Assembly (NCBI GenBank): GCA_911728435.2
Contig: OU452200.1
Span: 496,001 to 560,000 of the forward strand
Direction: 5' to 3'
DNA from: Apoderus coryli
Taxonomy: Eukaryota; Arthropoda; Insecta; Coleoptera; Attelabidae
Length of the DNA: 64,000 bases
Shown: in pieces, positions 3,246 through 57,251 of the stretch
Layout: the number at the start of each line of letters is the position of its first letter
How positions within the stretch are numbered: position 1 is the first letter of the stretch
The notes under the pieces: generated by a model
Database searches by the model: none
Told to the model about the DNA's origin: nothing
The model's input: only the letters and a program-made list of their open reading frames with translations
Program-made: the position numbers and the translations under genes

Positions 3246-6200
3246 TTAGTTGGATAAAAACACCTTTTTCGAGCCGGTTCCCAACTTTTCAAACACTTCT
3301 CCTCTCACATCCCTTACACTTTCCAATTCCTTTGCTTCCTTCTCCGACATATCAGGCAATTGAGCAAACAACTCTGTTTTCGTAACACCAGACTTTTTCT
3401 TTTTGTCATTATTTTTACCACTGTGATTATCTGCGCGTTGATCATCATCAGCTTTACGGGATCCCTGCAATCTTTGACGCTGCTCAAGACGGAAGTCACG
3501 CTTCTTTGATGGCGGTTCTACATCCAATTTGCGGAGAATTTGTTTCTGTGCACAATGATCTTGCGGATTGTATGATGCTGAGGGTTCTGTGTCCCATGAA
3601 GTATCTACTGGAGTGGTGTTGTTGTGTATGGGGAATTTTTCGCCTGGAATAAGACATTTATTAAATACCACTACGGCAACTACTTATATTTTGAGCTTGA
3701 GGCATTAGTTCCACCAGCGCACAAAAAATATTACCTATTTAGCTGTGAAAAAGGTTGGCTCTCGTTGGATCCCACAGCTCAAAAAGATACACGTGTGAAT
3801 TCATGCAAACAAATGCTCAAAAATACAATAAAGGTGTTTTCATAGTATATTTTAAATTATATATATTAAAAATTAAAGAAATTAAAGCCCAAAAATAGCG
3901 CTGGATTTGACGGCATACCTGCATTCCTAATTAGGGATTGCGCATATATATTTGCTAAACCATTACAAGTCCTAATCAATAAACGCTCAAACCTTTCCCG
4001 ACGTTTGGAAGAAGGCTCGTATATGTGCAGTGCACAAGGACAATGATGTCAACGAAATAGTGAACTATCGTCCGATATCCATTTTGTCTAACTTCTAAAG
4101 GTCTTTGAGATAGCCATACATGACAAATTATTTAGTCAAATAAAAAATTTAATAATAGTTCAACAACATGGCTTCTATCAGAAGCGCTCAACCGTCACTA
4201 ACTTATCCGAGTTCCTGCAGTATGTTTATCCCACCATGAGCAGAGGTGAACAGGTTGATGCTATCTACACAGACTTCTCGAAGGCTTTTGACAGGTTGGA
4301 CCATGGTATTATATTACGTAAAATGAGGGCGCTGGGATTCGGTGTTGCCCTTGTTGGATTCTTCGAGTCTTATCTTACGGGACGTACCTTGTTTGTTGAG
4401 TACAATGGCTTTAAATCTATGGATTTTGTAGCTACAAGTGGTGCACCGCAGGGGAGCAACTTGGCTCCACTTATATTTTCGATATACGTCAACGATATCA
4501 CTGCGAATGTATTTAGTTCCTGTCACCTTGTTGCTGATGATCTGAAGCTCTTCAGGATAATACGTAATCCCTTGGACTGTGAGCTGCTTCAGACGGACTT
4601 GGTGGCGTTGGAGCGTTGGTGTACAGATAACAGGCTTCCACTTAACACAAAAAATGCAAATGTATGTCGTTCGCCAGGAGTGCTGATATCGTCCGGTATG
4701 AGTACAGCATAGGCGATGACATTCTTCAGAGATGCAAGGAAGTTAGGGATCTGGGTGTCCTTGTTGACAATGAATTGTCACTCAATCCTCACCTTCACAG
4801 TATTTGCCAAGAGGCGACTAGAGCACTTTGGTTTATTATAAGGTCAACAAGGGAATTTCAGAATATAGACCCTCTTATAGCTCTTTACCAATCGCTGGTG
4901 CGGTCAAAGTTGCAATACGCGTCTGTCGTGGGGTCACCGATTTACCAGGTATATATAAATAAACTTGAGCAGGTTCAGCGTAAGTTTTTAAAGTACATTT
5001 CGTACAAGATTGATGGACGATATCCAGACAGGGGGGTTGATCATAACGAACTCTTAAACCGTTTTGGTTTTCAATCGTTGCAGTGTCGAAGAGTGTCTGC
5101 ATCTCAAATATTTCTTTTTAAATTAATCAACTCGATGCTGGAATGCCCTCATAGAAAGAGAGTTATTAATAACAATTAAAAGCAGAAAACTTCAGTATTT
5201 GGGCTCTGGGCTATATGACTCGTGGACCAAGATAAGCCTTACTTCAATTGATAATGCAGGGAAGGATCCAAGGTACAAGAAGCCTGGGTAGAAGAAGGAT
5301 ATCCTGGTTGAGAAACTTGAGAGAGTGGTTTGCATGTTCCTCGATAGAGCTTTTTAGAGCAGCTGCATCCAAAATAAGAATTACCATGATGATCGCCAAT
5401 CTTCGTCGCGGAGATGGCACCTAGAGAGAGAGAGATTGAAAGAAAAGGCCAATTTCAAATCAGAGCATCTATATTTATTTAGTATAGGTAAATAAGTTGT
5501 CTTTTTATGATTAATCATAAGTTTATTTGTGTTTAAAACACCATTCGTTGAATTTATGCAGCATAGTTTCGACTCTAAATCTTAGCAGATCTGGATAGTT
5601 CGCAGACACAGTAATTGCAGTATCGTCAGCAAACATACAGACATACCCCGTAGAAATATAATCCGGCAAATCATTCACAAAAATCAGGAATATCAAGGGG
5701 CTCAATACACTCATCAGACACATCCTCACCTACTCTAACCCTAAAGGACTTTTTTGCGGAATTTATGCCACATGTAGACATTTTGTACAATCCATCACAT
5801 AAAATTCAATAAGATCTGGTAAAAATTCAGATTGCACATGAACATTTCAGAAAAACAATCGAGAATATTCGAACAAATTTTTTGTCACCTGTTGCAGATA
5901 CTACAAACGGTACAAATACAAGCATGGTACGTATAATACCTATACACTTGTAAATGATCTAGCTCCACATAATATGAGATTAATAAATTGTGTATCGAAA
6001 AATATCTTGCCTTATTATAAAGGAACTTACCTTGCGCGACGCTTGACTCTTCCTGGTAAATACTCAACTCTACATGGCGTTTATCTGGACACCGTTCGTA
6101 ATGGTATTCAAGTTCGGGCTCCGCAATTCGATGCGACACATTAAAATCACATTGTACAATATTTGTATCAGGATAATTTTTACGGCAAAGCACCAAATGT

Positions 6201-7559: not shown

Positions 7560-9130
7560 TACGCAGATATTTTATATTTCAGATCTAGGCCAAGTTCTTG
7601 AACGCAAATTCATTGTTTTTTTTTTAGTTTTATTATAAAATTTATTTTGCCCCCTTTTCTACTATTTACGAACGCCTATGTAAACAAAATTGTTATGCTG
7701 CATGTTGTAGGTTATCCGTTAAGTGGTTTTTGCGTTATCACGGATACAATTTTTTTCTGACCCTTTTATAGAATTTTCACGGACGCCTATGGAACATTAA
7801 TTTTTGTCGTGTATTTTTAACACCAATTCAACTAGTTAAATCCAAAATTTTTTACATTTTAATTTTTTTTTATTTTACCCCTTTTTTTACTATTTACGAA
7901 CGCCTATGTAAATACAAATTTTATGCTGCATTTTTTAGGTTATCTTATATGAAAGCTACATATAATTAGCCAATTTTTCTGGTATATTTGGGAAACATTT
8001 TTTTTTTGTTTTTTACCCTTTTTTAAGACTATTTTCGAACGCCTGTGTGAACTAATTCTTTTATGTAACATTTTTAGGTTATATTCTATCACAACTATAA
8101 AAAATTATTCAATATTTCGGATAAGTTTAAGAACTATGATTTTTTAAATTTTTGAACCCTCTTTTAAACCCCTTGCCTACGCTCAATGTTAATCATTACC
8201 TATAAATATCCTGTAGTATTTTCGTACCAAATGTGGTTAAAATCCGTTAAGTGGTTTTTAAGTTATCACAAATACAAATTTTTTCTGACCCTTTTATAGA
8301 ATTTTCACGGACGCCTATTGTACATTAATTTTTGTCGAGTATTTTTAACACCAATTCATCTAGTTAAATATAAAAAATTTTACATTTTAATTTTTTTTTA
8401 TTTTACCCCTTTTTCTACTATTTACGAACGCCTATGTATATAAAAATTTTAAGCTGCATTTTTTAGGTTATCTTATATCGAAGCTATATATGATTAGCCA
8501 ATTTTTCTGGTATATTTGAGAAGCATTTTTTTTTCGTTTTTGACCCTTTTTTTAAACTATTTTCGAACGCCTGTGTGAACCAATTTTTTTATGGAATATT
8601 TTTTAGCTTATATTGTATCACAACTATGAAAAATAATTCCATATTTCGATTAAGTTTAGGAAATATATATTTTTTATGTTTTGACCCCTTTTCCACTATT
8701 TACGAAAGCCTATGAAAGTAAGTTATTCATGACACATTTTATAGGTTATATTCTATCAAAACTATAAATAACTAGTTAATATTTCTGCTATTGTTAAGAA
8801 ATACGTTTTTTTTTTAATCTTTTTTTCCCCATTTTACACTATTTTCGAACGCCAATGTGGTCTAATATTGTATGTTCAATATTTTAGGTTATATTCAATT
8901 AAATGCGTAAAAAATTATGCAGTATTTCGGATAAGTTTAAGAACTATGAATTTTTTTAATTTTTGAACCCTCTTTTAAACCCTTTGCCTACGCTCAATGT
9001 TTCCCAAAATCTAATCAGCTCCTTGCCATGTCCAATAGTATTTTTGTACCAAATTTGGTTAGAATCTGTTAAGCGGTTTTTGCGTTTTCGTGGATACAGA
9101 CAGACAGACGGACATTTTTTAAAACTACTT
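7560..9130 (+). repeat. Diverged tandem array, about 150-bp units with higher-order period
   Basis: The words ACTATTTACGAACGCCTATG and ACTATTTTCGAACGCC recur at about 7660, 7890, 8025, 8425, 8560, 8695 and 8840. Each is followed by a T-rich run and TTTTTAGGTTAT. Larger blocks repeat too: 7740-8000 resembles 8270-8520, and 8100-8180 resembles 8900-8990. The right end carries GTTAAGCGGTTTTTGCG and an ACAGACAGACAGACGGACA tail. No protein is encoded. Confidence 0.7.
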
Positions 9131-9770: not shown

Positions 9771-12700
9771 ATGAAGCCAGTAGACACAGGTGAAGAAATG
9801 GACATTTGTCATTACGATCCAAGCCATCGCGTACGGAGGAACCGTATGGAGAGACATTTGGTGCTTTGTCGTAAAAATCATCCTGATTCAAAATTGGTAA
9901 AATGTCATTTTAATCCGTTGCATCTATATGTGAAAACTGAAATTGAAAACCATCACGAAGTGTGTCCAGACAAACGCCATGTAGAGTTGGCTATTTACCA
10001 GGAAGAGTCCAGCGTCTCGGAAGGTAAGTTCCTTTATAATGAGGCAATATTTCCACAACATGTGCGAATTTCATCAAACCTCTTTTAACGCTGCTGTTCC
10101 GTCAGTGTCATTCTTAGAGAAGAATGGAACACTGTCACCATGGCTTTCGGGTTGAGTCGCATACTGTCAATTTCATGAACTTAGTGTATGAAAGGCTGGA
10201 TCAGAATGAGTTTATGATCGCCTTGCTTTAATCTAGGGTTCTTTAAGCCACTGATGATGGACATATGATTCGAAAGATGTCTGGCTAAAATTACAAGATT
10301 TCAACGTATATATACAAATCATTTTGTGGAGTAGACGTGTTTTATTCAATTAATATCTACTTCAGAAAATAATAAACTGTAAATTTGGATTAATTGTATT
10401 GTCAGCGTTGGTATAATGATTTTTATAACCGATGCTACTTTTGTGATTACCAGGAAATTCAACCCTGAATTTTTAAATATTTCCCATTAGTTGCTGGGCA
10501 ACGAAGTTCAAAACATGTAGTTCCAGTTGGATGGTGCCCCTGCACATTTTGCATTGGATAGTAAGGCGTACTTTGGATTGATTATTTTCTGAGAAATGGC
10601 CTCTGTGGTTCACATAACTAACCCCCAGATCTCCAGACTTGACACCACCAGATTTCAGAGCCGAACTATCCATCGGCACAAAGAAAATGTAAAAATCGCC
10701 GATGATGGTACAAGACTGCAGCTCGGAATATACAGGGTGGTCCAACTTTTACCTGCATAATTTTCAGAATCGATAGATAATCGACAAATAATGTGAGTTT
10801 GGTTAATAAACTATGTGCGAAAAATGCTTCGTTACGAAGTTACAGGGTGTTGAAATTTAAGAAATAAATTCGAATTTTATTAATATATTTATAACCAATT
10901 GAGATATTTCAATGAAATTTGGCACGTGTGGAGAAATAATCTAGCTTCATTTTTTCATGTAATAATATTATTTTTATTTCCACCAGTGGCGTGCGTACGG
11001 CTACTCATTGCGACATTTTTAATGAAAAAACAGATACGCCACTGGTTTATCTCAAAATGAAAATCATAATTGCAATTCTTGTTCAATTTAAAAGAAAAAA
11101 GTACTCTTGCCTTTTTTTCGTATGACGCAACATTTTCGAGTACAAAAATAAAAATCGTCTAAATTAAATGTATTGAAAACCAACATAAAAATAACATATA
11201 ATAATGCCGCGGCCAAGAATACGGTTTTTGCGAAGAAAATGCAGTAGTATCCGCAAGGGAGTATTCCCTAATAGACGTCATCCAACGAGAGAAGTTTTCT
11301 CTCAAGGTCATCGGGCATTTCGAGAACTAGGTTTAAATACTACTTTTAACATAAAAAACAATAGACAGCACCGTAGAAGAAACAATTTGGCGGATGAAAG
11401 GCGTATTTTAAGAACGTTTGATCCAAATTAAAACCTAAATTCACGAAGAACTGCTGTCATGCTTAACATATCAAGGTCCTACCTTGATCAGTAGCCGTAA
11501 ATAGATCGTCCGTGACATTAAGCAAGGCAGTGCAACAACTATAATCGGATCTGAAACCGGATTGAATTTTGGGCAATAAGCTTTGTTTCTCCACGTATCC
11601 CTTTACCTGGTCATCGAGAATTCTTTCAAGAATCTTGCTCATTGTAGGCAAAATACTCACAGGTCGCAAATCCTTGAAATCTGACGGATTTGACATTTTA
11701 GGCAGAGGAACAACTTGACTAATTTTCCAGATTTTAGGGTTTAGTCTAGTCTAAGGCTTTGGCGATATCTTCAATATCTACCATTTTAAAGTCGAAACTA
11801 TTGGCTTTTGGATTATGGTTAGACGAGTAAAAATTTAAGGTCTCAACAGCAGGCTTCCCGATAGGAATGTTCACAAAATATTCATTTATTTTGTCAAGAC
11901 CCTCCAAATGTTGAGGTATACTTGTTGTCTCTTTGCCATAAACATTCATATCTCTAAATAGCTTCCAATTATTCGTAGAATTGTTTTGTTGAATACGGAC
12001 CTGTAAGAAAGATCTTTTTTCCAGTTTTCTGGAATTTTATGTTTCTTATATCGCGTGAGGGCTTTATTTCGTAGTTTTTGTAAATTCTTAAAATCGTTGG
12101 TTATCCATGGCGCTCTCTTTTTTGTTATTCGAACTGTCCTAACCGGGGCGTGATTATTAAAAATATTTATTAAACATTTCTATTTTTGTGTCAACATCAT
12201 TTTCATTATAAATGCTGTGAAAAGGTTGATTTATTAAATCTTGATAAAACATGTCTTGGTTAAAATGTGTAAAATCTCTGAAAGTATGAAAAAATGGTAT
12301 TGGTTTTTGTTGCCTCGACATATTTTTAAATATACAATGTATAGGTACGTGGTCCGAGAAATCTATTAAAAAATCTAAACGAGGTTTATCAATATAGTGG
12401 CTGTTTGAGCAAATGATAATGTCTAGAAGCGATGGGTTGCCAGTACCGTATCTAGTGGGTTCTTCAATTAGTTGTTTAAATAATAATAATAATAGCTTTA
12501 TTACTCAACAGAACAAGTTCCATTTACAGAGCAATGCTTACAAAAACCAACTATAACTAAAGCTTAACTATATTAAATAACAGTAGGTACATCAATAAAC
12601 AACGAAAATCAACCTAAGGACACAAGTATTAATGAACATCAAGTTCCTTTAGTATTGATTCCGCGGAAGACAATATTTCATTCAGAGAATCAAAAAATAT

Positions 12701-15700
12701 ATCACACTGATCATTAACCAAATTAAATTGCCGGCACATAGTATAAATGGGAGATTTTAATATAACATTTGTTCTGGCTCGCTCATTATAAAATGCAATA
12801 GAACTTCTAGCATTGATACGCGGAACCAACAGAGATACCTTTTCCAGTAGCTCAGGGCACACTACATCACTATTGAATATCTTATATAGGAAGCTTATAC
12901 TAAACAAATTTCTCCTTAAACTTAAACTTTGAAATTGAAATTGGTCAATAAGATATTTGTAAGATATTCCGCGATCAGGGTAAGTTCCATCAATCTTAAA
13001 GCACAAACATTTTAAAAATTTACGCTGAACTTTCTCAATCATTTGAATATCACAGTCATAGCAGGAGTACCAGACCAAAGAGCAATATTCAAGCTTAAAT
13101 CTTACATATGCATAATATAGAGTATTCAAAGTAACGACACTCTCGAAATATTTGCTGTTTCTAACAATAAAGCCAAAAGCTTTGGTCGCACCAGCCACCT
13201 TATCTGTAATATGTTTCTTGAAAGTGAAATGCATCTCAAAAGTAACTCCAAGATCTTTAATAGCCTCCTTTCGATTAAGAATTACTCCATTTACATTATA
13301 ATAAAAGATAGTCGGGGACGTTTTGCGGGTATAAGAAACAACATTACATTTCTTAGGATTGAGGGAAAGTCTGTTTTGTTCACACCAAGCATTCACCAAT
13401 TGAAGACTGCCCTGTAGCGAAATACAATCCTGCGGCGTACTTATCGTTGTAAAAATCTTTAAGTGATCTGCATAAATCAGTTTACTGCAAATCAATAATT
13501 CTCCCAAATCATTAATGAATAATAAAAATAATAGATGTCCCAGATTTGAACCCTGAGGTACACCAGATAGAGCTGTATAATATGTCGATGTATATCCATT
13601 GTATGACACAAACAGAACTCTATCAGTAATATAAGATTGCAGAAGACAGACGGCATCAGCGCTAAAGGCAAAATGCGGAAGCTTTTGTATAAGGATTGTA
13701 TGATCAATTCTATCAAACGCCTTGCAAAAATCGGTGTATACAACGTCAACTTGACCGCAGTTATCCAACGTCCCAGACACGTATTGTGAAAAAATTGACA
13801 AATTTGTAAGTGTGGACTTGTGTGCAATGAAACCATGCTGATACTGGACCAGCCTATGTTGAACAATTGGATAAATACGATTGTAAAGGACTATTTCAAG
13901 TAATTTAGAAAAATTAGACAGAATTGATATAGGCCTATAATTGGTTATATCCGCACGATCTCCGCTCTTGAAAACAGGACACACCCTAGCATTCTTCCAG
14001 ACCATAGGAAAAGTATTACGTCTTGATATTAAGTTATAAATTATACACAGAGGAACGCACATTACTGAAATTGTATCTTGGACCAAGAATGAGGGAATCC
14101 CGTCAGGTCCGGAAGTAAACCTGTTCTTTAATTTGCGAGCAGCCATAACTATCTCTCCCTCAGTATATTTCCAAATGTGATATCATTTCCACACAGGAGC
14201 GATAATGCATCATCATTACCACAACCCACAGGTCCCACAAAGACACTTTCAAAGTATTTAGCAAACGTTTTTTGTTTTAAATTATAGTCAATTCTGAGCT
14301 GTGGGATCCAACGAGAGCAAACCTTTTTCACAGCTAAATATTCATGTAATATTTTTTGTACGCTGGTGGAACTAATGCCTCAAGCTCAAAATATAACTAG
14401 TTGCCGTAGTGGTATTTAATAAATGTCTTATTCCAGGCGACAAATTTCCCATACACAACATTCCCACCGTGCCAGCAGATGATTCATGGGACGGAGAACC
14501 CTCAGCAACATACAATCCGGAAGAATATTGTTCACAGAAACAGGTTCTCCGCAGATTGGATGTAGAACCGCCATCAACGAAGCGTGACTTCCGTTTTGAG
14601 CAGCGTCAGAGATTGCAAGGAACCCCTAAAGCTGATGATGATCAACGCGCGGAGAATCGCAGTGGTAAAAAAAATAACCAAAAGAAAAAAAAGTCTGGTG
14701 TTACAAAAACAGAGTTATTTCCTCAATCGCCTGATATGTCGGAGAAGGGAGCGAAGAAATCGGCAAGTGCAAGTGAGGTGAGAGAAGCAGATGATTCAAG
14801 GGACGGAGAACCCTCAGCAACATACAATCCGCAAGAATATTGTTCACAGAAACAGGTTCTCCGCAAATTGGATGTAGAACCGCCATCAACGAAGCGTGAC
14901 TTCCGTTTTGAGCAGCGTCAAAGATTGCAAGGATCCCCTAAAGTTGATGATGATCAACGCGCGGAGAATCGCAGTGGTAAAAAAAATAACCAAAAGAAAA
15001 AAAAGTCTGGTGTTACAAAAACAGAGTTATTTCCTCAATCGCCTGATATGTCGGAGAAGGAAGCGAAGAAATCGGCAAGTGCAAGTGAGGTGAGAGAAGC
15101 AGATGATTCAAGGGACGGAGAACCCTCAGCAACATACAATCCGCAAGAATATTGTTCACAGAAACAGGTTCTCCGCAGATTGGATGTAGAACCGCCATCA
15201 ACGAAGCGTGACTTCCGTTTTGAGCAGCGCCAAAGATTGCAAGGATCCCCTAAAGCTGATGATGATCAACGCGCAGAGAATCGCAGTGGTAAAAAAAATA
15301 ACAAAAAGAAAAAAAAGTCTGGTGTTACAAAAACAGAGTTATTTCCTCAATCGCCTGATATGTCGGAGAAGGAAGCGAAGAAATCGGCAAGTGCAAGTGA
15401 GGTGAGAGAAGCAGATGATTCAAGGGACGGAGAACCCTCAGCAACATACAATCCGCAAGAATATTGTTCACAGAAACAGGTTCTCCGCAGATTGGATGTA
15501 GAACCGCCATCAACGAAGCGTGACTTCCGTTTTGAGCAGCGCCAAAGATTGCAAGGATCCCCTAAAGCTGATGATGATCAACGCGCAGAGAATCGCAGTG
15601 GTAAAAAAAATAACAAAAAGAAAAAAAAGTCTGGTGTTACGAAAACAGAGTTATTTCCTCAATCGCCTGATATGTCGGAGAAGGAAGCGAAGAAATCGGC

Positions 15701-16385
15701 AAGTGCAAGTGAGGTGAGAGAAGCAGATGAGGACGGAGAACCCTCAGCAACATACAATCCGCAAGAATATTGTTCACAGAAACATTTTCTCCGCAGATTG
15801 GATGTAGAACCGCCATCAACGAAGCGTGACTTCCGTTTTGAGCAGCGTCAAAGATTGCAAGAATCCCCTAAAGCTGATGATGATCAACGCGCAGAGAATC
15901 GCAGTGGTAAAAAAAATAACAAAAAGAAAAAAAAGTCTGGTGTTACGAAAACAGAGTTATTTCCTCAGTCGCCTGAGATGTCGAAGAAGGAAGCGAAGGA
16001 ATCGGCTAGTGTAAGTGAGGTGAGAGAAGCAGATGAGGACGGAGAACCCTCAACAACATACAATCCGCAAGAATATTGTTCACAGAAACAGGTTCTCCGC
16101 AGATTGGATGTAGAACCGCCATCAACGAAGCGTGACTTCCGTTTTGAGCAGCGCCAAAGATTGCAAGGATCCCCTAAAGTTGATGATGATCAACGCGCGG
16201 AGAATCGCAGTGGTAAAAAAAATAACCAAAAGAAAAAAAAGTCTGGTGTTACAAAAACAGAGTTATTTCCTCAATCGCCTGATATGTCGGAGAAGGAAGC
16301 GAAGGAATCGGCAAGTGTAAGTGAGGTGAGAGAAGTGCCTGAAAAGTTGAGAACCGGTTCGAAAAAGGTGTTTTTACCCAAATAA
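9771..16385 (+). CDS. GTSF1: GTSF1-like protein with six-fold repeated tail (two exons, 733 aa)
   Basis: Exon 1 is 9771-10023 and exon 2 is 14437-16385. Exon 1 ends in phase 1 at AAG|GTAAGT; exon 2 begins after TTATTCCAG and completes Gly85 in frame. Two intact CHHC zinc fingers occupy residues 13-33 and 45-65 (C-x5-H-x9-H-x3-C). The tail starts DKFPIHN, has Trp102, then runs through six near-identical units, each with acidic TYNPQEY, a basic RDFRFEQRQRLQ and a lysine run, ending TGSKKVFLPK. Family members are usually far shorter. In GTSF1, tail aromatics contact PIWI; here only unit 1 keeps the Trp. The 4.4-kb intron holds mariner and LINE pieces. Leader and intron start match the minus-strand copy. 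That exon 2 belongs to exon 1 is inferred from phase, from the other copy and from family tail motifs. Confidence 0.78.
10080..10380 (+). repeat. Penelope-type terminal repeat fragment with hammerhead-like motif
   Basis: Within the intron of the plus-strand GTSF1-like gene. Bases 10246-10286 form a hammerhead-like motif: AGCCA, CTGATGA, GAAA, then TGGCT closing a 5-bp stem I. Stem II is weak (GGA/TTC). A GTGGAGTAGACGTGTTTTATT block follows at about 10334, as at the other such sites. Bases about 10120-10230 may encode a decayed reverse-transcriptase scrap (HGFRVESHTVNF). Confidence 0.45.
10470..10735 (+). pseudogene. Mariner-type transposase C-terminal fragment
   Basis: The plus strand reads FQLDGAPAHFA near 10515 and PRSPDLTPPDF near 10625. 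These are the second and third catalytic regions of the Tc1/mariner-superfamily transposases related to the element at 55002. It is broken by stops and ends where the 10733 element begins. Confidence 0.6.
10733..11476 (+). mobile_element. 5' half of a mariner-type element
   Basis: Starts with CAGGGTGGTCCAACTTTTA, the same terminal inverted repeat as the complete copy at 55002-57251, and follows that copy through the start of the transposase (FPNRRHPTREVF and NNLADERRILRTFD). It stops abruptly after ATATCAAGGTC at about 11476, where an unrelated minus-strand LINE begins. Confidence 0.8.
11477..12482 (-). mobile_element. Jockey-type LINE fragment: endonuclease end plus reverse transcriptase start
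   Basis: Read on the minus strand, 12480-12300 gives the end of an apurinic endonuclease domain (TRYGTGNPSLLDIIICS and FSDHVPIHCIF). It is followed at 11949-11746 by the linker and at 11696-11463 by the reverse-transcriptase fingers (DLRPVSILPTMSKILERIL, IQSGFRSDYSCCTALLNV). The catalytic centre is missing. It lies in the intron of the plus-strand GTSF1-like gene, antisense to it. Confidence 0.8.
12483..14290 (-). mobile_element. 5'-truncated LINE with long open reverse transcriptase and (ATT)n tail
   Basis: One open frame from 14146 to 12629 (505 codons) covers most of the reverse transcriptase and thumb: SGPDGIPSFLVQ, NYRPISILSNFSKLLE, VYTDFCKAFDRIDH, SGVPQGSNLGHLLFLLF, then a YADH catalytic box in place of FADD or YADD. 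The C-terminus runs to SILKELDVH. The 3' end carries an (ATT)n microsatellite at about 12482-12496, a typical tail for this type. The 5' end is cut at about 14290, directly before sequence shared with the other GTSF1-like copy. The altered catalytic Asp suggests it is inactive. Confidence 0.88.
14478..16337 (+). repeat. Six in-frame coding repeats of 312 or 306 bp
   Basis: Units start at 14478, 14790, 15102, 15414, 15726 and 16032. The first four are 312 bp (104 aa) and the last two are 306 bp, having lost two codons at the unit junction. Nucleotide differences between units are few, which indicates recent amplification or gene conversion. Unit 1 reads DDSWDGEPS; units 2-4 read DDSRDGEPS (TGG to AGG); units 5-6 read DEDGEPS. 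The minus-strand paralog at 3246-3643 has a single unit. Confidence 0.95.
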
Positions 16386-23990: not shown

Positions 23991-26582
23991 TTATGCGTTT
24001 TTCTGCAAATACTCATCAAACAAGAAGAGAGCCAAAGTACTGTCAGGCCCACTAAGCAAATCACCCAAATCATTAGTATATCCTGACAACTTCCTTATAA
24101 TATCCCGATGTTTAAACGCATAGGTCTCCTCCAAATGGTGAGTAATCTCAGGATCATGGTTATCATCACGTCTTCTAGAAGACTCTCGGTGAATATCAAA
24201 CACTTCCAGTGCTAATTTCTTTTGAATATCTAATGCTTTAGCGAAAGCTCCGATTTCGTATAACTCGGCATTAGGGATAGTACCAATTTCCTCTTTAATT
24301 TCATCGTTAAAAGCGTTAAAATCCATGGAACCTCCACGTGAAGTTATGTATTTAATCAAACCGATACTATCTTCCCATAGGTAGTCAGAGAGGTCTCGGA
24401 ATACTTTCTCGAAACCAGCGCGGTTTTTCTGGTAATTCGCGAAATGCGTCGACATAAGAAGGTAGTCGAACGAACGCATGAATTGGTGGTTGGCATATTT
24501 TTGTAGATCGCTTTGCACGTTGCGTATTGCCCCGTAAGTAGCATTGCAGTTCGGTAGTTCTGTACCTAGAATTGAATCAAAACAAAGAAAGGTCAAACGT
24601 ATAACATTTATGATACCTATTGTGTTACATTATGATAATGATAATTATTATGATTCGTAGAAACAAGTTATTTGTTATAAATTTATATTAAACATTGAAA
24701 TTAAAGTCAGTAGATTATTTTTTGTACTTTGGTATTTCCGTTTCATTCTGTTTTAAAATTACATGCAGTTGGGTTATAGTCCAAGAGCTGGCTACTGGCT
24801 ACATAGATCATTTACAGGTTCCGCTATTGCCGACACGGAGATAATGTGAGAGTAGGGGGTTAAGTTAAATATGTACTTTTTTCTCATAAATAAGTGATCA
24901 GAGAAATGCAGCCATGAAAATTTACAAACAAAGCTAGAGGAAAAATCGCCAGAAGGGTAGGCCTATGTGCACTTCTGGCAATTTGTTTACTTATTCTCCA
25001 ATTCAAAACGAGATTACGACAGAAGGTGGAACAATAAGAGTTGTATTTTATATTTTACTTCATCAAGTGCATTAGTCAACATAGTTTTTACTTTAGTAAA
25101 CTATTGGAAAACTGCCAGAAGTGATTGAAATTGCTAAGTAGAAGTACACGTGATTTTGATGTGACCAAGCAAGTGTTAATAATATAATAACGAGTGTTAC
25201 GAACAATAAAACACTTAATAAACAATATTATCATACTTTTGAAACAATCGTTTATTTTTTTTTTAATGGAACAAATGATTCAGATAGACATTACAAAAAT
25301 TTATCAGTGTATGTGAACATTTGATACATACGCTGATAAGTAATTACAACAAAAGTAATATCGTACACAAAGCTAGCTAGAGAAATATTTGTTTTTTTTC
25401 AACACAATTCAATTACGGATAAACCTACTTGAAACTAGATATTGGGTCGGACAATAGTATGGTGGTTGACCTTTGGTCTAATATTATGTACAATGATTTA
25501 CGATTTTATATAAGAAACCTTCGCAGATGAATTTCACAGAGTTCTACCAGGGACTTTAGTGATGCTCAATGTATAATGAATTTATAGATAGATTTGTTAT
25601 TATCTATTATGTTGGATAGGCTTGAAAAACACAAAACCATACTTGCAAATTTTGCTAGTTTCTCCCTATATCTGCCCCTGAAGATATTTCTGCAAAATCA
25701 GCCCATTTTATTAATTTATCATCATTTTATGAAAACGATTTGTTCAAAGTAACAGAGCCACTCTTAAAGCTGAATTCAAAATTTTCGCCATTGAACCATT
25801 GATTCCAAAAAACATCGATACTGTGCGCAAAATGATAGAACATGATAGACATGTAACCTACAGAGACTCAGAAGCTCCGCATTAGACCTATTTCATAGAA
25901 TATTTCGAAAACTATTGCTTGACAGTTAAATTTAAATGTTTTATAATTTTCACCCTCTTCAAGGTGGTGCTTTTTTCAAATTTTACCTCAGACGTTTCTT
26001 CTTTAACTTTTTTAAATATAGACCTCGACCAAAAGAAGGAACCTGACCAATACCGGAAAAAATGCCGGTACAAAAAATCCCTATAGCTCTTTGTTAAAAT
26101 ACAAAAAAAAACATAAATAACCTTCCTACAATCCCCCCCGTCATTTCTATACATCCTTTTTGCAAAATAAATGTCCTAACTTAACCTAATGTCCTTGTTT
26201 TAATTATTAAAATTAATTATGAAAATTAATAATAAGATGTTCTATTATTATGACTGATTTTTTTTATTAAACGATGTGTATTAAATTTCAATGTCAGCTT
26301 TTAAAAGTGTATATAAATAATACTGGATGCGTCCCTGCTTTAAGCAATAAAAATATAGAACAGCTGATTAAAATGTCAAAATAGCACAACTAATAAAAAA
26401 TTCCATACCTAACCCTAATTACAGTAAAAAACGTAAAATTATTTTAAATAAACTAATAGGCACATACCTTGCTTGGTGGCTGATGGTTTACATGCTTCCT
26501 GCGTATCTTTATAGCAAAAGTCGTCAGCGGCCCTGGCCGACAAAACAATCAAACTGAAGAGTACAACAAAGATGGCTTTCAT
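23991..26582 (-). CDS. Fer2LCH: Secreted ferritin light-chain homologue (229 aa)
   Basis: Coding exons 26582-26468 and 24565-23991, joined in phase 1; a 5'UTR exon ends at a CAG|GTTAG donor near 26669. Residues 1-18 are a signal peptide (MKAIFVVLFSLIVLSARA), so the protein enters the secretory pathway as insect ferritin does. The four-helix ferritin fold follows, with cysteines near the N-terminus (FCYK, EACK, NCNATYG). The ferroxidase EExxH motif is replaced by WEDSIGLIKYI, so this is the non-catalytic subunit that supports mineral nucleation and assembly with the heavy chain. It is divergently arranged with the heavy chain 1.3 kb away, as in Drosophila. I find no iron-responsive element in its leader. 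The 1.9-kb intron shows no gene. Confidence 0.93.
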
Positions 26583-27880: not shown

Positions 27881-30307
27881 ATGAGGAACATCCTATTAAC
27901 ATTTGTCGTTTTGGCAATTACAGCAACGGGTTTCACATCGGCCCAACTACATTGTGAGTTAAATACTTGATTAATTATTGATATTTATTATTATTAATGA
28001 GTTATGTTATTCCGTATTAGCATTATTTTTGTTTTGATTCTTGTTTTGGGGTCAAGGTTAAATAATAATAGTTCTGTGCTGCCATGTTTTTATACAGAGT
28101 CGTATTCAAAGAAATTATGATTTTAAGGACTCTGTAGGAATAGTTATTGTCATTGATATTAAGTCAACAACATTTTGTTTAACCCAATAAATTGATGTAA
28201 AAATAATAGTAAGAGCTCCGTACTAATATTATAGATGGTAGGAGGTCTTCATTTATTGCTTTGAGGTATTCTATTTATGTCAGGTTTATTTGTAAAACTT
28301 ATAAAACCAAAACCAACTGTATTATAAGGGTTCTAAGAAAAGTGAGTACTTGATTCTAAATAGGAATATATTTATTTTCAATTTATTGTTATCTGTAAGT
28401 GAAATTTTATTAAAATTGAATTAGTATTTATGATTTAAATCAGTTGTTTTCTTGTCAAGGGTTTTTAAATAATTTATCTATTGACGTGGGTAAATTTTGT
28501 CGTACTTGATAAATAAAATTACTCAAGTAGTTGTTTCAGATAAGTATGTTCTCTTAAGGTACAGACTTTGGATTTTAGGGTCAAACATTTGAAAAGGAAT
28601 TTAGCAAACAATCTAATGATTTTTCATTACTTAGTCTTATTTTAGATTTTTTTATATAAGCAGAAGATGCATCCACCACTGTACTGCTGTTATATTTTTA
28701 ATTATTACATTCGAAAACATAGTTTTCTTAACAGTTTGACAGGGCTGTCAGCATTAGCAGTGCAGTGGTAATCCTGTGCCTCCAAATGTTTGGTAAAAAT
28801 ATTCAGAGCATGTCTTTTGTTCAGACTTTAATTTAATTGGAAAGGGGATAATCACCCCTTTTTTAAATAGTTGATATTGACGTCAACCTCTGTTGTACTG
28901 TTCAAATACCCAAAACCAAAAACTCAAGTATGGTTAAGCGACTAAGCATGTGATAACTTTAGAGTATCAAAAAGCGCAAGAATTCAAATTGGGAGCTCTC
29001 TGGACAAAGTTTTAGATCTGGAATAAGCACAACTAGCCTTAACGCACAGACAGCTTTCTCTTGCCTAATTCGTGCGCTTTATACACTGGTGTGAGATGCA
29101 TGATATGTTGAAAGTCTTTAAATGTTTTTGACTAAACTGAATGTGAATTTGAGTAAATTGAAATTTCTAACTAGAAGACCTCTTTTATATTGATACTTTA
29201 TCGATCAATTAGTCAGGGTTTGGGGAGTTTACTGCGACACTTCCCTGCATTGTATCAATACCATCAAGTCGCCCTCGTCCTGTTGATTTTGTTGTTGATC
29301 AGTTGGGACTCACGGCGTTGAGGTAGAGGAGAGTAGTTACAGACCTAAGAGATACTATACAAGATTTTAATCAATATTTTTTCGATTGTTAATTAGTTCT
29401 CATGTCCCCTCTAGACACTATAAAGGCTCTCCTCTCGAGAAACGAGATTGGCAAATACTTGCTCTCATTCCAGTATTGATTTCTTTGCACCTATCGGTGA
29501 ATTTATTCGCTCCTTGAAATGTCAAGTGCCGTAGTGGCATGATTCCGATTACTATTCTATTGAAATTTGCTTTTATCTATTAATAAATAAATATATTTAC
29601 AGGTGAGCACCGCAAACCAAACATCCCAGATGACTGGCTGGACATGGTCGATCCATGCGTCAACCAAATGCGCACGCAAATCCAACAAGAACTGAAAGCA
29701 GCCATGCAATACATGGCGATGGGCGCACATTTTTCTAAAGACACTATCAATCGACCGGGATTCGCTCACCTGTTTTTCGAAGCAGCTAGCGAGGAACGGG
29801 AACATGCCATTAAACTGATCTCCTACTTACTTATGAGAGGTGAACTTACTTCTAGAGTCAGTGATCTCATCAAAAGAAATGTACGTGTATGAGAATTTAC
29901 CTTCAAATCATATCATATCAACTGTTATTTCTTTAAATTCTAGCTTGCTCCACCGGTAATTACTTGGGCGTCTGCTGCAGACGCTTTGAGAGATGCCTTG
30001 AAGCTAGAAGCTTTAGTTACTAAGAAGATCCGTAACGTTATTAAAGTCTGTGAAGATGGTGAAAACAAGGCTAACTTTAATGACTATCATGTAACTATTA
30101 ACGAGCATTTGTACGAATTCTTTCGTTTACTTTTGTTTTTGATTTCAGTTGGTTGATTATTTGACATCTGACTTCTTGGACGAGCAATACAAGGGTCAAC
30201 GTGATCTGGCTGGCAAACTCTCAACTTTGGACAAGATGATGGATCGACATGGAGCTTTAGGAGAATTCTTGTACGACAAAAAGTTGCTTGAAGCCACTGT
30301 TATATAA
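27881..30307 (+). CDS. Fer1HCH: Secreted ferritin heavy chain (218 aa, 4 coding exons)
   Basis: Exons 27881-27953, 29603-29880, 29944-30090, 30149-30307, all with GT-AG borders and consistent phase. Residues 1-21 form a signal peptide (MRNILLTFVVLAITATGFTSA). The ferroxidase centre is present: Glu in IQQELKAAMQY with its Tyr, Glu and His in SEEREH, Glu in LKLEALV, and a Gln in DEQYKGQ. It oxidises Fe(II) and, with the light chain, forms the secreted ferritin shell used for iron storage and transport. An IRE in the leader indicates translational control by iron. A polyadenylation signal AATAAA is at about 30399. Intron 1 (1.65 kb) shows nothing else. Confidence 0.95.
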
Positions 30308-35809: not shown

Positions 35810-45088
<9,279 letters not shown>

Positions 45089-55001: not shown

Positions 55002-57251
55002 CAGGGTGGTCCAACTTTTACCTGCATAAATTTCAGAATCGATAGATAATCGACAAATAATGTGAGTTTGGTTAATAAACTATGTGCGAAAAATGCTTCG
55101 TTACAAATTTACAGGGTGTCAAAATTTAAGAAAAAAATTTGAATTTTATTAATATCTTTATAACCAATTGAGATATTTCAATGAAATTTGGCAAGTGTAG
55201 AGAGGTAATTTAGCTTCATTTTTGCATGTAATAATATTATTTTTATTTCCACCAGTGGCGTGCGTACGGCTACCGATTGCAACATTTTTAATGAAAAAAC
55301 AGATACGCCACTGGTTTATCTCAAAATGAAAATTATATCTGCAATTCTTGTTCAATTTAAAAGAAAAAAGTACTCCTGGCTTTTTTTCGTATGACGCAAC
55401 ATTTTCGAGTAAAAAAAGAAAAATCATCTAAATTAAATGTATTGAAAACCAACATATTATCATTACACGTTTTACACATATTTAACAGATTTTACAGGTT
55501 TTTTTTTGCAGAAACTGTTCAAAATGACTACCGTCATTGTCAATACATAATTGGTAAAAGGCGCATAATTATCACATTAGCTTTCATTCAAACAAAACAC
55601 TTGGTTACAAACCAGAAATGTCAATCATTTTGTCACAATAAATTTGTGTTGTATTTAAGTGTTCTTTTTAGTGTTAATAATAATTCCGCGGCTATTTAGT
55701 AACCAAGAATAGGGTTTTTGCGAAGAAAATGCAGTAGCAGCCGCAAGGGAGTATGCACGCAGATTCCCTAATAGACGTCATCCAACGAGAGAAGTTTTCT
55801 GTCAAGTTCATCGGGCATTTCGAGAACGAGGTTTAAATACTACTTTTAACATAAACAACAATAGACAGCGCCCTAGAAGAAACAATTTGGCCGATGAAAG
55901 GCGTATTTTAAGAACGTTTGATCGAAATCCAAACCCAAGTTCACAAAGAACTGCTGTCATGCTTAACATATCAAGGTCAACCATTTTTAAGTCACTTCAT
56001 AAAGATGGTAGAAAGGCTTGCCATTTTAGGACTGTGCAAGATTTATTGCCTGAGGACTATGTTAAAAAGCATAACTATTGCAAATCGTTATTGAATAAAG
56101 TTCAAGTAGATAGAGCTTTCCTGCATAAGGTTTGCTGGACTGATGAAGCCTCATTTACAAGAACTGGTATAACGAATTACCACAACTTTCATATTTGGTC
56201 ACAACACAATCCATACGAAGTGCGAGCGAGAAAGTTTCAACACCAGTTCACTGTGAACGTGTGACTAGGAGTAATATCCAATAATCTCCTCGGACCATTC
56301 TTTTTACCAGCTAGGTAAAAAGGACTTTTTACAGAATACTTTAAATTATTTAATGGATGCACTTCATTTACTTGCAAATGGTTGGTTTCAATTGAATGGA
56401 GCACCAGCATATTTCGGGCGGAATGTGAGAAACTAAATAACAGAGCATTACGGAAATCAATGGATTCGCTGTTTCCCTGGAGAAGTCGAAAATAATCAGG
56501 AGGGACCTATATCTTGGCCCCCAAGGTCGCTTGACTTGACTCCACTTGATTTCTTTATTTGCGGCTACCTAAAAGAAAAAGTATATAGAGTGCCGGTCAG
56601 AAAACGCGAAGAATTAGTCTTAAAAATTCAAAAAGCTTGTGATGAGTTGCATCGTAACAATCACATTATATCAGCAGCAATTAATAGCATCACAAGAAGA
56701 TGCCAATTGTGTATTGACATTGACGATAGTCATTTTGAACAGTTTCTGTAAAAAAAACTGTAATATCTGTTAAAACGTGTAATGATATGTTATTTTTATG
56801 TTGATTTTCAATACATTTGGTTTAGACGATTTTTATTTTTTTACTCGAAAATGTTGCGTCATACGAAAAAAAGCCGAGAGTACTTTTTTCTTTTAAATTG
56901 AATAAGAATTGCAGATATAATTTTGATTTTGAGATAACCCAGTGGCGTATCGGATTTTTCATTAAAAATATCGCAATCGGTAGCCGTACGCACGCCACTG
57001 CTGGGAATAAAAATAATATTATTACATGCAAAAATGAAGCTAAATTACCTCTCCACACTTGCCAAATTTCATTGAAATATCTCAATTGGTTATAAAGATA
57101 TTAATAAAATTCAAATTTTTTTCTTAAATTTTGACACCCTGTAAATTTGTAACGAAGCATTTTTCGCACATAGTTTATTAACCAAACTCACATTATTTGT
57201 CGATTATCTATCGATTCTAAAATTTATGCAGGTAAAAGTTGGACCACCCTG
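55002..57251 (+). mobile_element. Mariner-type transposon with long inverted ends, inactive
   Basis: CAGGGTGGTCCAACTTTTAC at 55002 is mirrored at 57251; the inverted ends run for more than 400 bp. The flank is TA on the left and TT on the right. The transposase reads from about 55715: ENAVAAAREYARRFPNRRHP, an HTH region (MLNISRSTIFKSLHKDG), first catalytic Asp in CWTDEASF, second in FQLNGAPAYF, third in RSLDLTPLDFFICGY, ending HFEQFL. Stops near 56262 and 56315 break it, and the second catalytic Asp is Asn. A half copy lies at 10733-11476. Confidence 0.85.

Follow-up and report, generated by a model that had tools for sequence, protein, structure and literature searches.

Introduction

GTSF1 homologues are proteins of less than 20 kDa, generally carrying two zinc fingers, with Piwi binding ascribed to aromatic residues (PMC9539491), and GTSF1 has been reported to convert slow PIWI proteins into efficient slicers (PMC9385479). 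The present report concerns a stretch of 64,000 nucleotides from the beetle Apoderus coryli (GenBank assembly GCA_911728435.2, contig OU452200.1, positions 496,001 to 560,000 of the forward strand; hereafter the window, with positions counted from its first letter), in which two genes assigned by sequence to the GTSF1/Asterix family stand head to head: a long member, L, whose C-terminal tail is made of six repeated units, and a paralogue, S, of ordinary layout, with one tail. The tryptophan best supported as a docking residue is left in only one of the six units, and the L protein probably grips one partner, not six.

Several described systems come close to this pair. Asterix/DmGTSF1, CG34283, CG32625 and CG14036 of Drosophila belong, like L and S, to a piRNA cofactor family with CHHC fingers and Piwi-binding aromatic residues (PMC9539491); they count 167, 153, 144 and 93 residues, respectively (PMC12014135, Table 4), against 733 for L and 216 for S, and the excerpts of these sources mention, unlike what is seen in L, no repeated tail. 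Mouse GTSF1 (PDB entry 6x46) and the GTSF1 of entry 9nhb match L and S across both fingers up to a Trp-Asp motif, but their chains, of 121 and 149 residues, are far shorter than L. Three tryptophans of mouse GTSF1 have been implicated in the binding of MIWI, which becomes more than 60-fold weaker when W98, W107 and W112 are mutated jointly (PMC9385479), whereas L has a single Trp in total; the tail is moreover said to diverge greatly between mammals and arthropods (PMC9385479). In Bombyx mori Gtsf1L, the tail carries W99 and D100, described as broadly conserved; W99 enhances Ago3 binding, and the W99A mutation abolishes the binding of Vreteno and affects that of Ago3 (PMC10711660). The Trp-Asp of S and of L unit 1 corresponds to this pair by motif, the Gtsf1L sequence not being among those aligned; the silkworm tail has 39 residues (PMC10711660), against 649 encoded by exon 2 of L, where the Trp is missing from five of six units.

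Lineage-specific duplication of GTSF1, as in L and S, has been described for asterix in the Drosophila obscura group, where the duplicate is intronless and strongly male-biased (PMC6505081), whereas L and S both keep their intron and lie head to head. McDonald-Kreitman tests on obscura-group asterix alone gave no evidence of positive selection; elsewhere the ancestral asterix copy is counted as adaptively evolving (PMC6505081). No repeated GTSF1 tail was found in the titles and abstract openings of the literature searched, a partial coverage that is no proof of absence. A natural pair such as L and S would let one ask what the GTSF1 tail does beyond docking.

Anatomy of the Two Genes

L is encoded on the forward strand by two exons: exon 1 (9771-10023, +) encodes a pair of CHHC fingers, at residues 13-33 and 45-65, together with the first part of a linker, and is separated by a GT-AG intron of 4413 nt (10024-14436, +) from exon 2 (14437-16385, +), which encodes a short linker, the six tail units, a single C-terminal end and the stop. 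The donor reads AAG/GTAAGT and the acceptor TTATTCCAG/G (the slash marks the junction), and the two exons join in phase to give 733 codons followed by a stop at 16383-16385. When six acceptor positions were tried (14436-14441), the frame stayed open at 14437 and at 14440, of which 14437 alone is preceded by AG. The chance of a 649-codon open frame in random DNA of matching base composition is about 6e-22, a figure that becomes about 1e-5, for one unit plus the ends, once the repetition is allowed for.

S lies on the reverse strand, with exon 1 (6283-6031, -) encoding two CHHC fingers and exon 2 (3643-3246, -) encoding one tail unit that carries Trp-Asp (Trp101, codon 3596-3594); its product has 216 residues and its splice phase is that of L. 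The two genes point apart, their start codons lying about 3.5 kb from each other, and the two proteins (L being represented by unit 1 plus the end) agree at 151 of 215 aligned positions, with three one-residue gaps. A tblastn search of the window with both proteins returned no third GTSF1 copy at E 1 or better. Since S independently repeats the two exons, the phase and a similar donor and acceptor, the paralogue is good evidence that the gene model of L is right; the original prediction, which had given the same exon coordinates, the 10023/14437 join and its exact phase, is in this respect reproduced, and its account of the locus did not include S. With masses of 84.3 kDa (L) and 25.2 kDa (S) both products exceed the limit of 20 kDa usual for GTSF1, yet size is taken here as a usual and not a defining trait of the family, and the membership of both is retained.

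An antisense LINE-type reverse-transcriptase open reading frame (ORF; RVT_1) lies in the L intron (12629-14182, -) and another antisense reverse-transcriptase ORF (RVT_1) in the S intron (4092-4712, +); they look like separate insertions, because their DNA match extends over only 53 bases at 77%. Apparent DNA-transposon fragments, assigned to one family by eye on the basis of a PNRRHPTREVF block, are found at about 11200-11430, within the L intron, and at 55713-56264, the latter matching the DUF4817 helix-turn-helix. The spacer between S and L holds tandem repeats of about 139 nt and a 451-base stretch repeated in the same orientation at 89% (spans 7714-8163 and 8242-8692, and 7862-8145 and 8598-8857).

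Membership of the GTSF1 Family

Both fingers of L and both fingers of S fit the spacing C-x5-H-x9-H-x3-C exactly, and the Pfam family PF05253 matches once in L and twice in S. Scanned one finger at a time against a cut-off of 21.1 bits, finger 1 of L (28.9 bits) and fingers 1 and 2 of S (27.7 and 30.3 bits) pass, while finger 2 of L, at 16.4 bits, falls below; since finger 1 scores almost equally in the two proteins and finger 2 of L is so far below that of S, the scores suggest that L carries the derived version of finger 2. Against PDB chains, the first 201 residues of L match the GTSF1 of 9nhb (E 6.6e-16) and mouse GTSF1 of 6x46 (E 2e-14) and, far behind, U11-48K (E 0.16), and the same order is found for S (1.2e-16, 1.3e-15 and 0.0094, respectively); for both proteins the alignments to the GTSF1 chains extend past the fingers up to Trp-Asp. 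The assignment of L and S to GTSF1/Asterix, nearer to GTSF1 than to U11-48K, is thus supported by finger spacing, by PF05253 and by the PDB matches, in agreement with the earlier proposal of a GTSF1/Asterix-type protein with two intact CHHC fingers, and L can be regarded as a real gene architecture of this family with an unusual repeated tail.

RNA binding by finger 1 of mouse GTSF1 has been ascribed to R26, R29, K36 and K39 (PMC9385479); in the alignments, the positions of R26, R29 and K39 are basic in both L and S, and that of K36 is occupied by Leu. Relatives were looked for in a protein database, among 59 candidates for S and, for L, among the 7988 with the most words in common; no match reached E 0.01, a result that, lacking an animal-protein positive control, says little on the spread of this form. 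In a scan of viral contigs S had 23 pattern matches, none of them a relative.

The Repeated Tail and Its Trp-Asp Motif

At 14474-16335, Tandem Repeats Finder detects a 312-nt repeat in 6.0 copies with 97% matches; at the protein level, units of 104, 104, 104, 104, 102 and 102 residues start at residues 98, 202, 306, 410, 514 and 616, and all the repeat boundaries are in frame. In coordinates derived from the unit starts, unit 1 spans 14475-14786 (+), units 2-4 span 14787-15722 (+; starts 14787, 15099 and 15411) and units 5-6 span 15723-16334 (+; starts 15723 and 16029); the C-terminal end and the stop (16335-16385, +) are present in a single copy and are common to S. The six units differ from one another by 0.3 to 7.5% of their DNA and from the S unit by 11 to 13%, with 22 of 312 columns varying within the array (column 14 varies only through the placement of the gap in units 5-6); units 3 and 4 are separated by 1 difference in 312 positions, every other pair by 5 or more. 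Across the S unit and all six L units, 69 of the 104 positions are identical, chiefly in the blocks LDVEPPS.KRDFR.EQRQRLQ (dots are varying positions) and DDDQRA and in the lysine-rich KKKKSGVTKTELF. The net charge of the exon 2 product at pH 7 is +25.0 for L (649 residues) against +3.0 for S (132 residues), and such a basic, low-complexity tail suggests an affinity for RNA or for the nucleus.

The position with the best support for a role in docking is among those that vary. Trp-Asp is found in S and in unit 1 of L (Trp102, codon 14487-14489), and in no other unit; this Trp is the only one in the 733 residues of L, S likewise has one, and units 2-6 have none. Units 2-4 read Ser-Arg-Asp, with AGG in place of the TGG of unit 1 and S, and units 5-6 carry a 6-nt deletion at the same position. 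In the alignment with 6x46, Trp102 of L faces W107 of mouse GTSF1, the numbering following from the fact that the aligned mouse stretch stops at chain residue 109, two residues past the Trp. A tyrosine near the motif is retained in six of six units (ATYNP, or TTYNP in unit 6), and the GTSF1 chain of 9nhb has a Tyr at the equivalent position. The six-fold amplification proposed in the original prediction is therefore borne out, both by Tandem Repeats Finder and by the protein; its description of the units as near-identical holds for the unit as a whole and fails at Trp-Asp; and its view of the repeated tail as a repeated PIWI-docking site, hence as a multivalent scaffold, is unsupported as it was put, with the Trp present in one unit of six.

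A tree of the six L units and the S unit, calculated without support values, groups unit 6 with unit 2 and does not join units 5 and 6; as this contradicts the deletion that units 5 and 6 have in common, no history is read from it. Two independent losses are not claimed, since that deletion may have come either before or after the change from Trp to Arg.

In the AlphaFold2 model of the exon 2 product of L alone the mean pLDDT is 41.2, with 565 of 648 residues under 50; one strand per unit is placed near the KRDFR block, where pLDDT is about 46-66, and is given no weight. The exon 1 model is poor as well (mean pLDDT 49.4).

Divergence and Constraint in the Pair

The two genes resemble each other also outside their exons: the region before the ATG, both intron ends and the 3' region show 21 mismatches in 413 locally aligned nucleotides. 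By comparison, exon 1 differs at 46 of 253 positions (gapped alignment; p 1e-7 against the close flanks), a contrast to be read with the bias of local alignments towards similar sequence, and one that constraint on the flanks or gene conversion could also cause; as it stands, L and S offer the case of a piRNA cofactor whose coding exons are more diverged between duplicates than the close flanks. The exon 1 differences fall on codon positions 1, 2 and 3 in the numbers 22, 14 and 10, and are densest in bases 1-42 and 127-168 (13 each), that is, at the N-terminus and where finger 2 begins; over residues 24-36 of finger 1 the two proteins do not differ. In exon 1 the rate of amino-acid-changing substitution (dN) is 0.23 and the silent rate (dS) 0.127, a ratio of about 1.8; since the difference between the two classes is not significant (p 0.30), no positive selection is claimed. 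Compared with the S unit, each L unit gives a dN/dS of about 0.58-0.86.

The flanks contain 6 frame-shifting gaps in 413 nt and the protein alignment of the coding parts no frame break over 644 nt (Fisher p 0.003), although the comparison is not quite like for like, since the coding parts, when aligned freely as nucleotides, show nine gaps, of which six have lengths indivisible by three and compensate one another. In simulations of random substitution, the S frame stays open with probability 0.15 after 42 changes and 0.02 after 85, and the L frame with probability 0.36, 0.21 and 0.13 after 20, 30 and 40 changes; with chances ranging from 0.02 to 0.36, the openness of a frame is by itself modest evidence. 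The pair shows signs of coding constraint, weak at the amino-acid level.

Possible Explanations of the Repeated Tail

The explanation favoured here over a six-fold scaffold, and considered about evenly balanced between right and wrong, is that L docks at one site only, behind which runs a long, basic and possibly disordered repeat tail. It starts from the gene anatomy, the repeat, the loss of Trp, the drift of finger 2 and the matching frames of the pair, all of which are observed directly, and supposes that the 312-nt exon 2 unit gained further copies without disturbing the frame, for which unequal exchange is the simplest route; Trp-Asp would have stayed in unit 1, and the part amplified would be the remainder of the unit, with its LDVEPPS.KRDFR.EQRQRLQ and KKKKSGVTKTELF blocks. 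The protein, presumably expressed in the germline, would bind RNA via finger 1 and dock one PIWI protein, or one Tudor-domain partner, via its sole Trp, and the tail may contribute avidity towards RNA, chromatin or some further partner, or else serve as a spacer or retention tail.

Several observations weigh against this explanation. The number of docking sites hangs on a single residue, and the mouse mutant altered three Trp at once; silkworm Gtsf1L deprived of its C-terminus still bound some Ago3 (PMC10711660), and for mouse GTSF1L and GTSF2 the contact with MIWI and MILI is said to be made by a zinc finger and not the tail (PMC9539491). The Tyr beside the motif persists in every unit of L. 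The low-confidence model of exon 2 fits a disordered tail, but is weak evidence, coming from one sequence. Finally, the variable columns of the array comprise 16 amino-acid-changing (15 without column 14) and 6 silent ones, the available sites standing at about 3.8 to 1, numbers that do not show the extra units to have a selected role.

As selection has not been demonstrated for these units, a serious rival is that the array expanded neutrally, or at a slight cost, in the disordered tail of a relaxed duplicate, with L drifting and its extra units devoid of a specific role; we regard this as possible though somewhat unlikely. The dN/dS of the units against S, the near-neutral changes within the array, the score of L finger 2 on its own (16.4 bits, under the Pfam cut-off of 21.1) and the simulated substitutions that fairly often leave the frames open speak for such an expansion; on the other hand, the open frames, the ligand spacing and the splice sites are intact in both genes, the repeat boundaries are in frame, and the protein alignment shows no frame break where the flanks have six frame-shifting gaps, with the reservation on that comparison made above.

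Returning to a single dock, it is also conceivable, if rather doubtful, that selection has made L a one-to-many adaptor, or else an antagonist, in which one PIWI or Tudor dock is combined with five Trp-less units repeatedly presenting another conserved module to RNA, chromatin or an unknown partner; if this were true, L, with its drifted finger 2, could oppose S or act at other targets.

It appears improbable that the repeated tail serves as a multivalent scaffold to which several PIWI complexes dock via residues other than Trp, or that it titrates such complexes. The loss of the best-supported docking residue from five of six units undercuts the idea, which would stand only if docking can rely on some other residue of the unit, the retained Tyr being one candidate. 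This Tyr is kept in every unit and has its equivalent in the 9nhb GTSF1, and the legend of Figure 3 of PMC10711660 attributes a part in binding to a Trp as well as a Tyr of fly Gtsf1, yet in the silkworm protein W99A loses Vreteno and weakens Ago3 while Y88A does not (PMC10711660), with the proviso that Y88 is non-conserved and may thus be another Tyr. That the copy number is partly an assembly artefact, the real number of units being different, is very improbable: units 3 and 4, at 1 difference in 312 positions, are of the kind on which assemblies can err, but the other pairs differ at 5 or more positions and the deletion of units 5-6 is missing from units 1-4, so that an array of several units is likely to be genuine, even should the exact count prove wrong.

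Other Elements of the Window

No Rfam match was obtained in the window at the gathering threshold. Two ferritin-like ORFs lie near each other on opposite strands, at 23991-24629 (-) and 29587-29892 (+), the former scoring below its Pfam cut-off. A minisatellite of TCGTTTATGTCAATTACA-like units occupies 36980-37772, and all three frames of its + strand are open.

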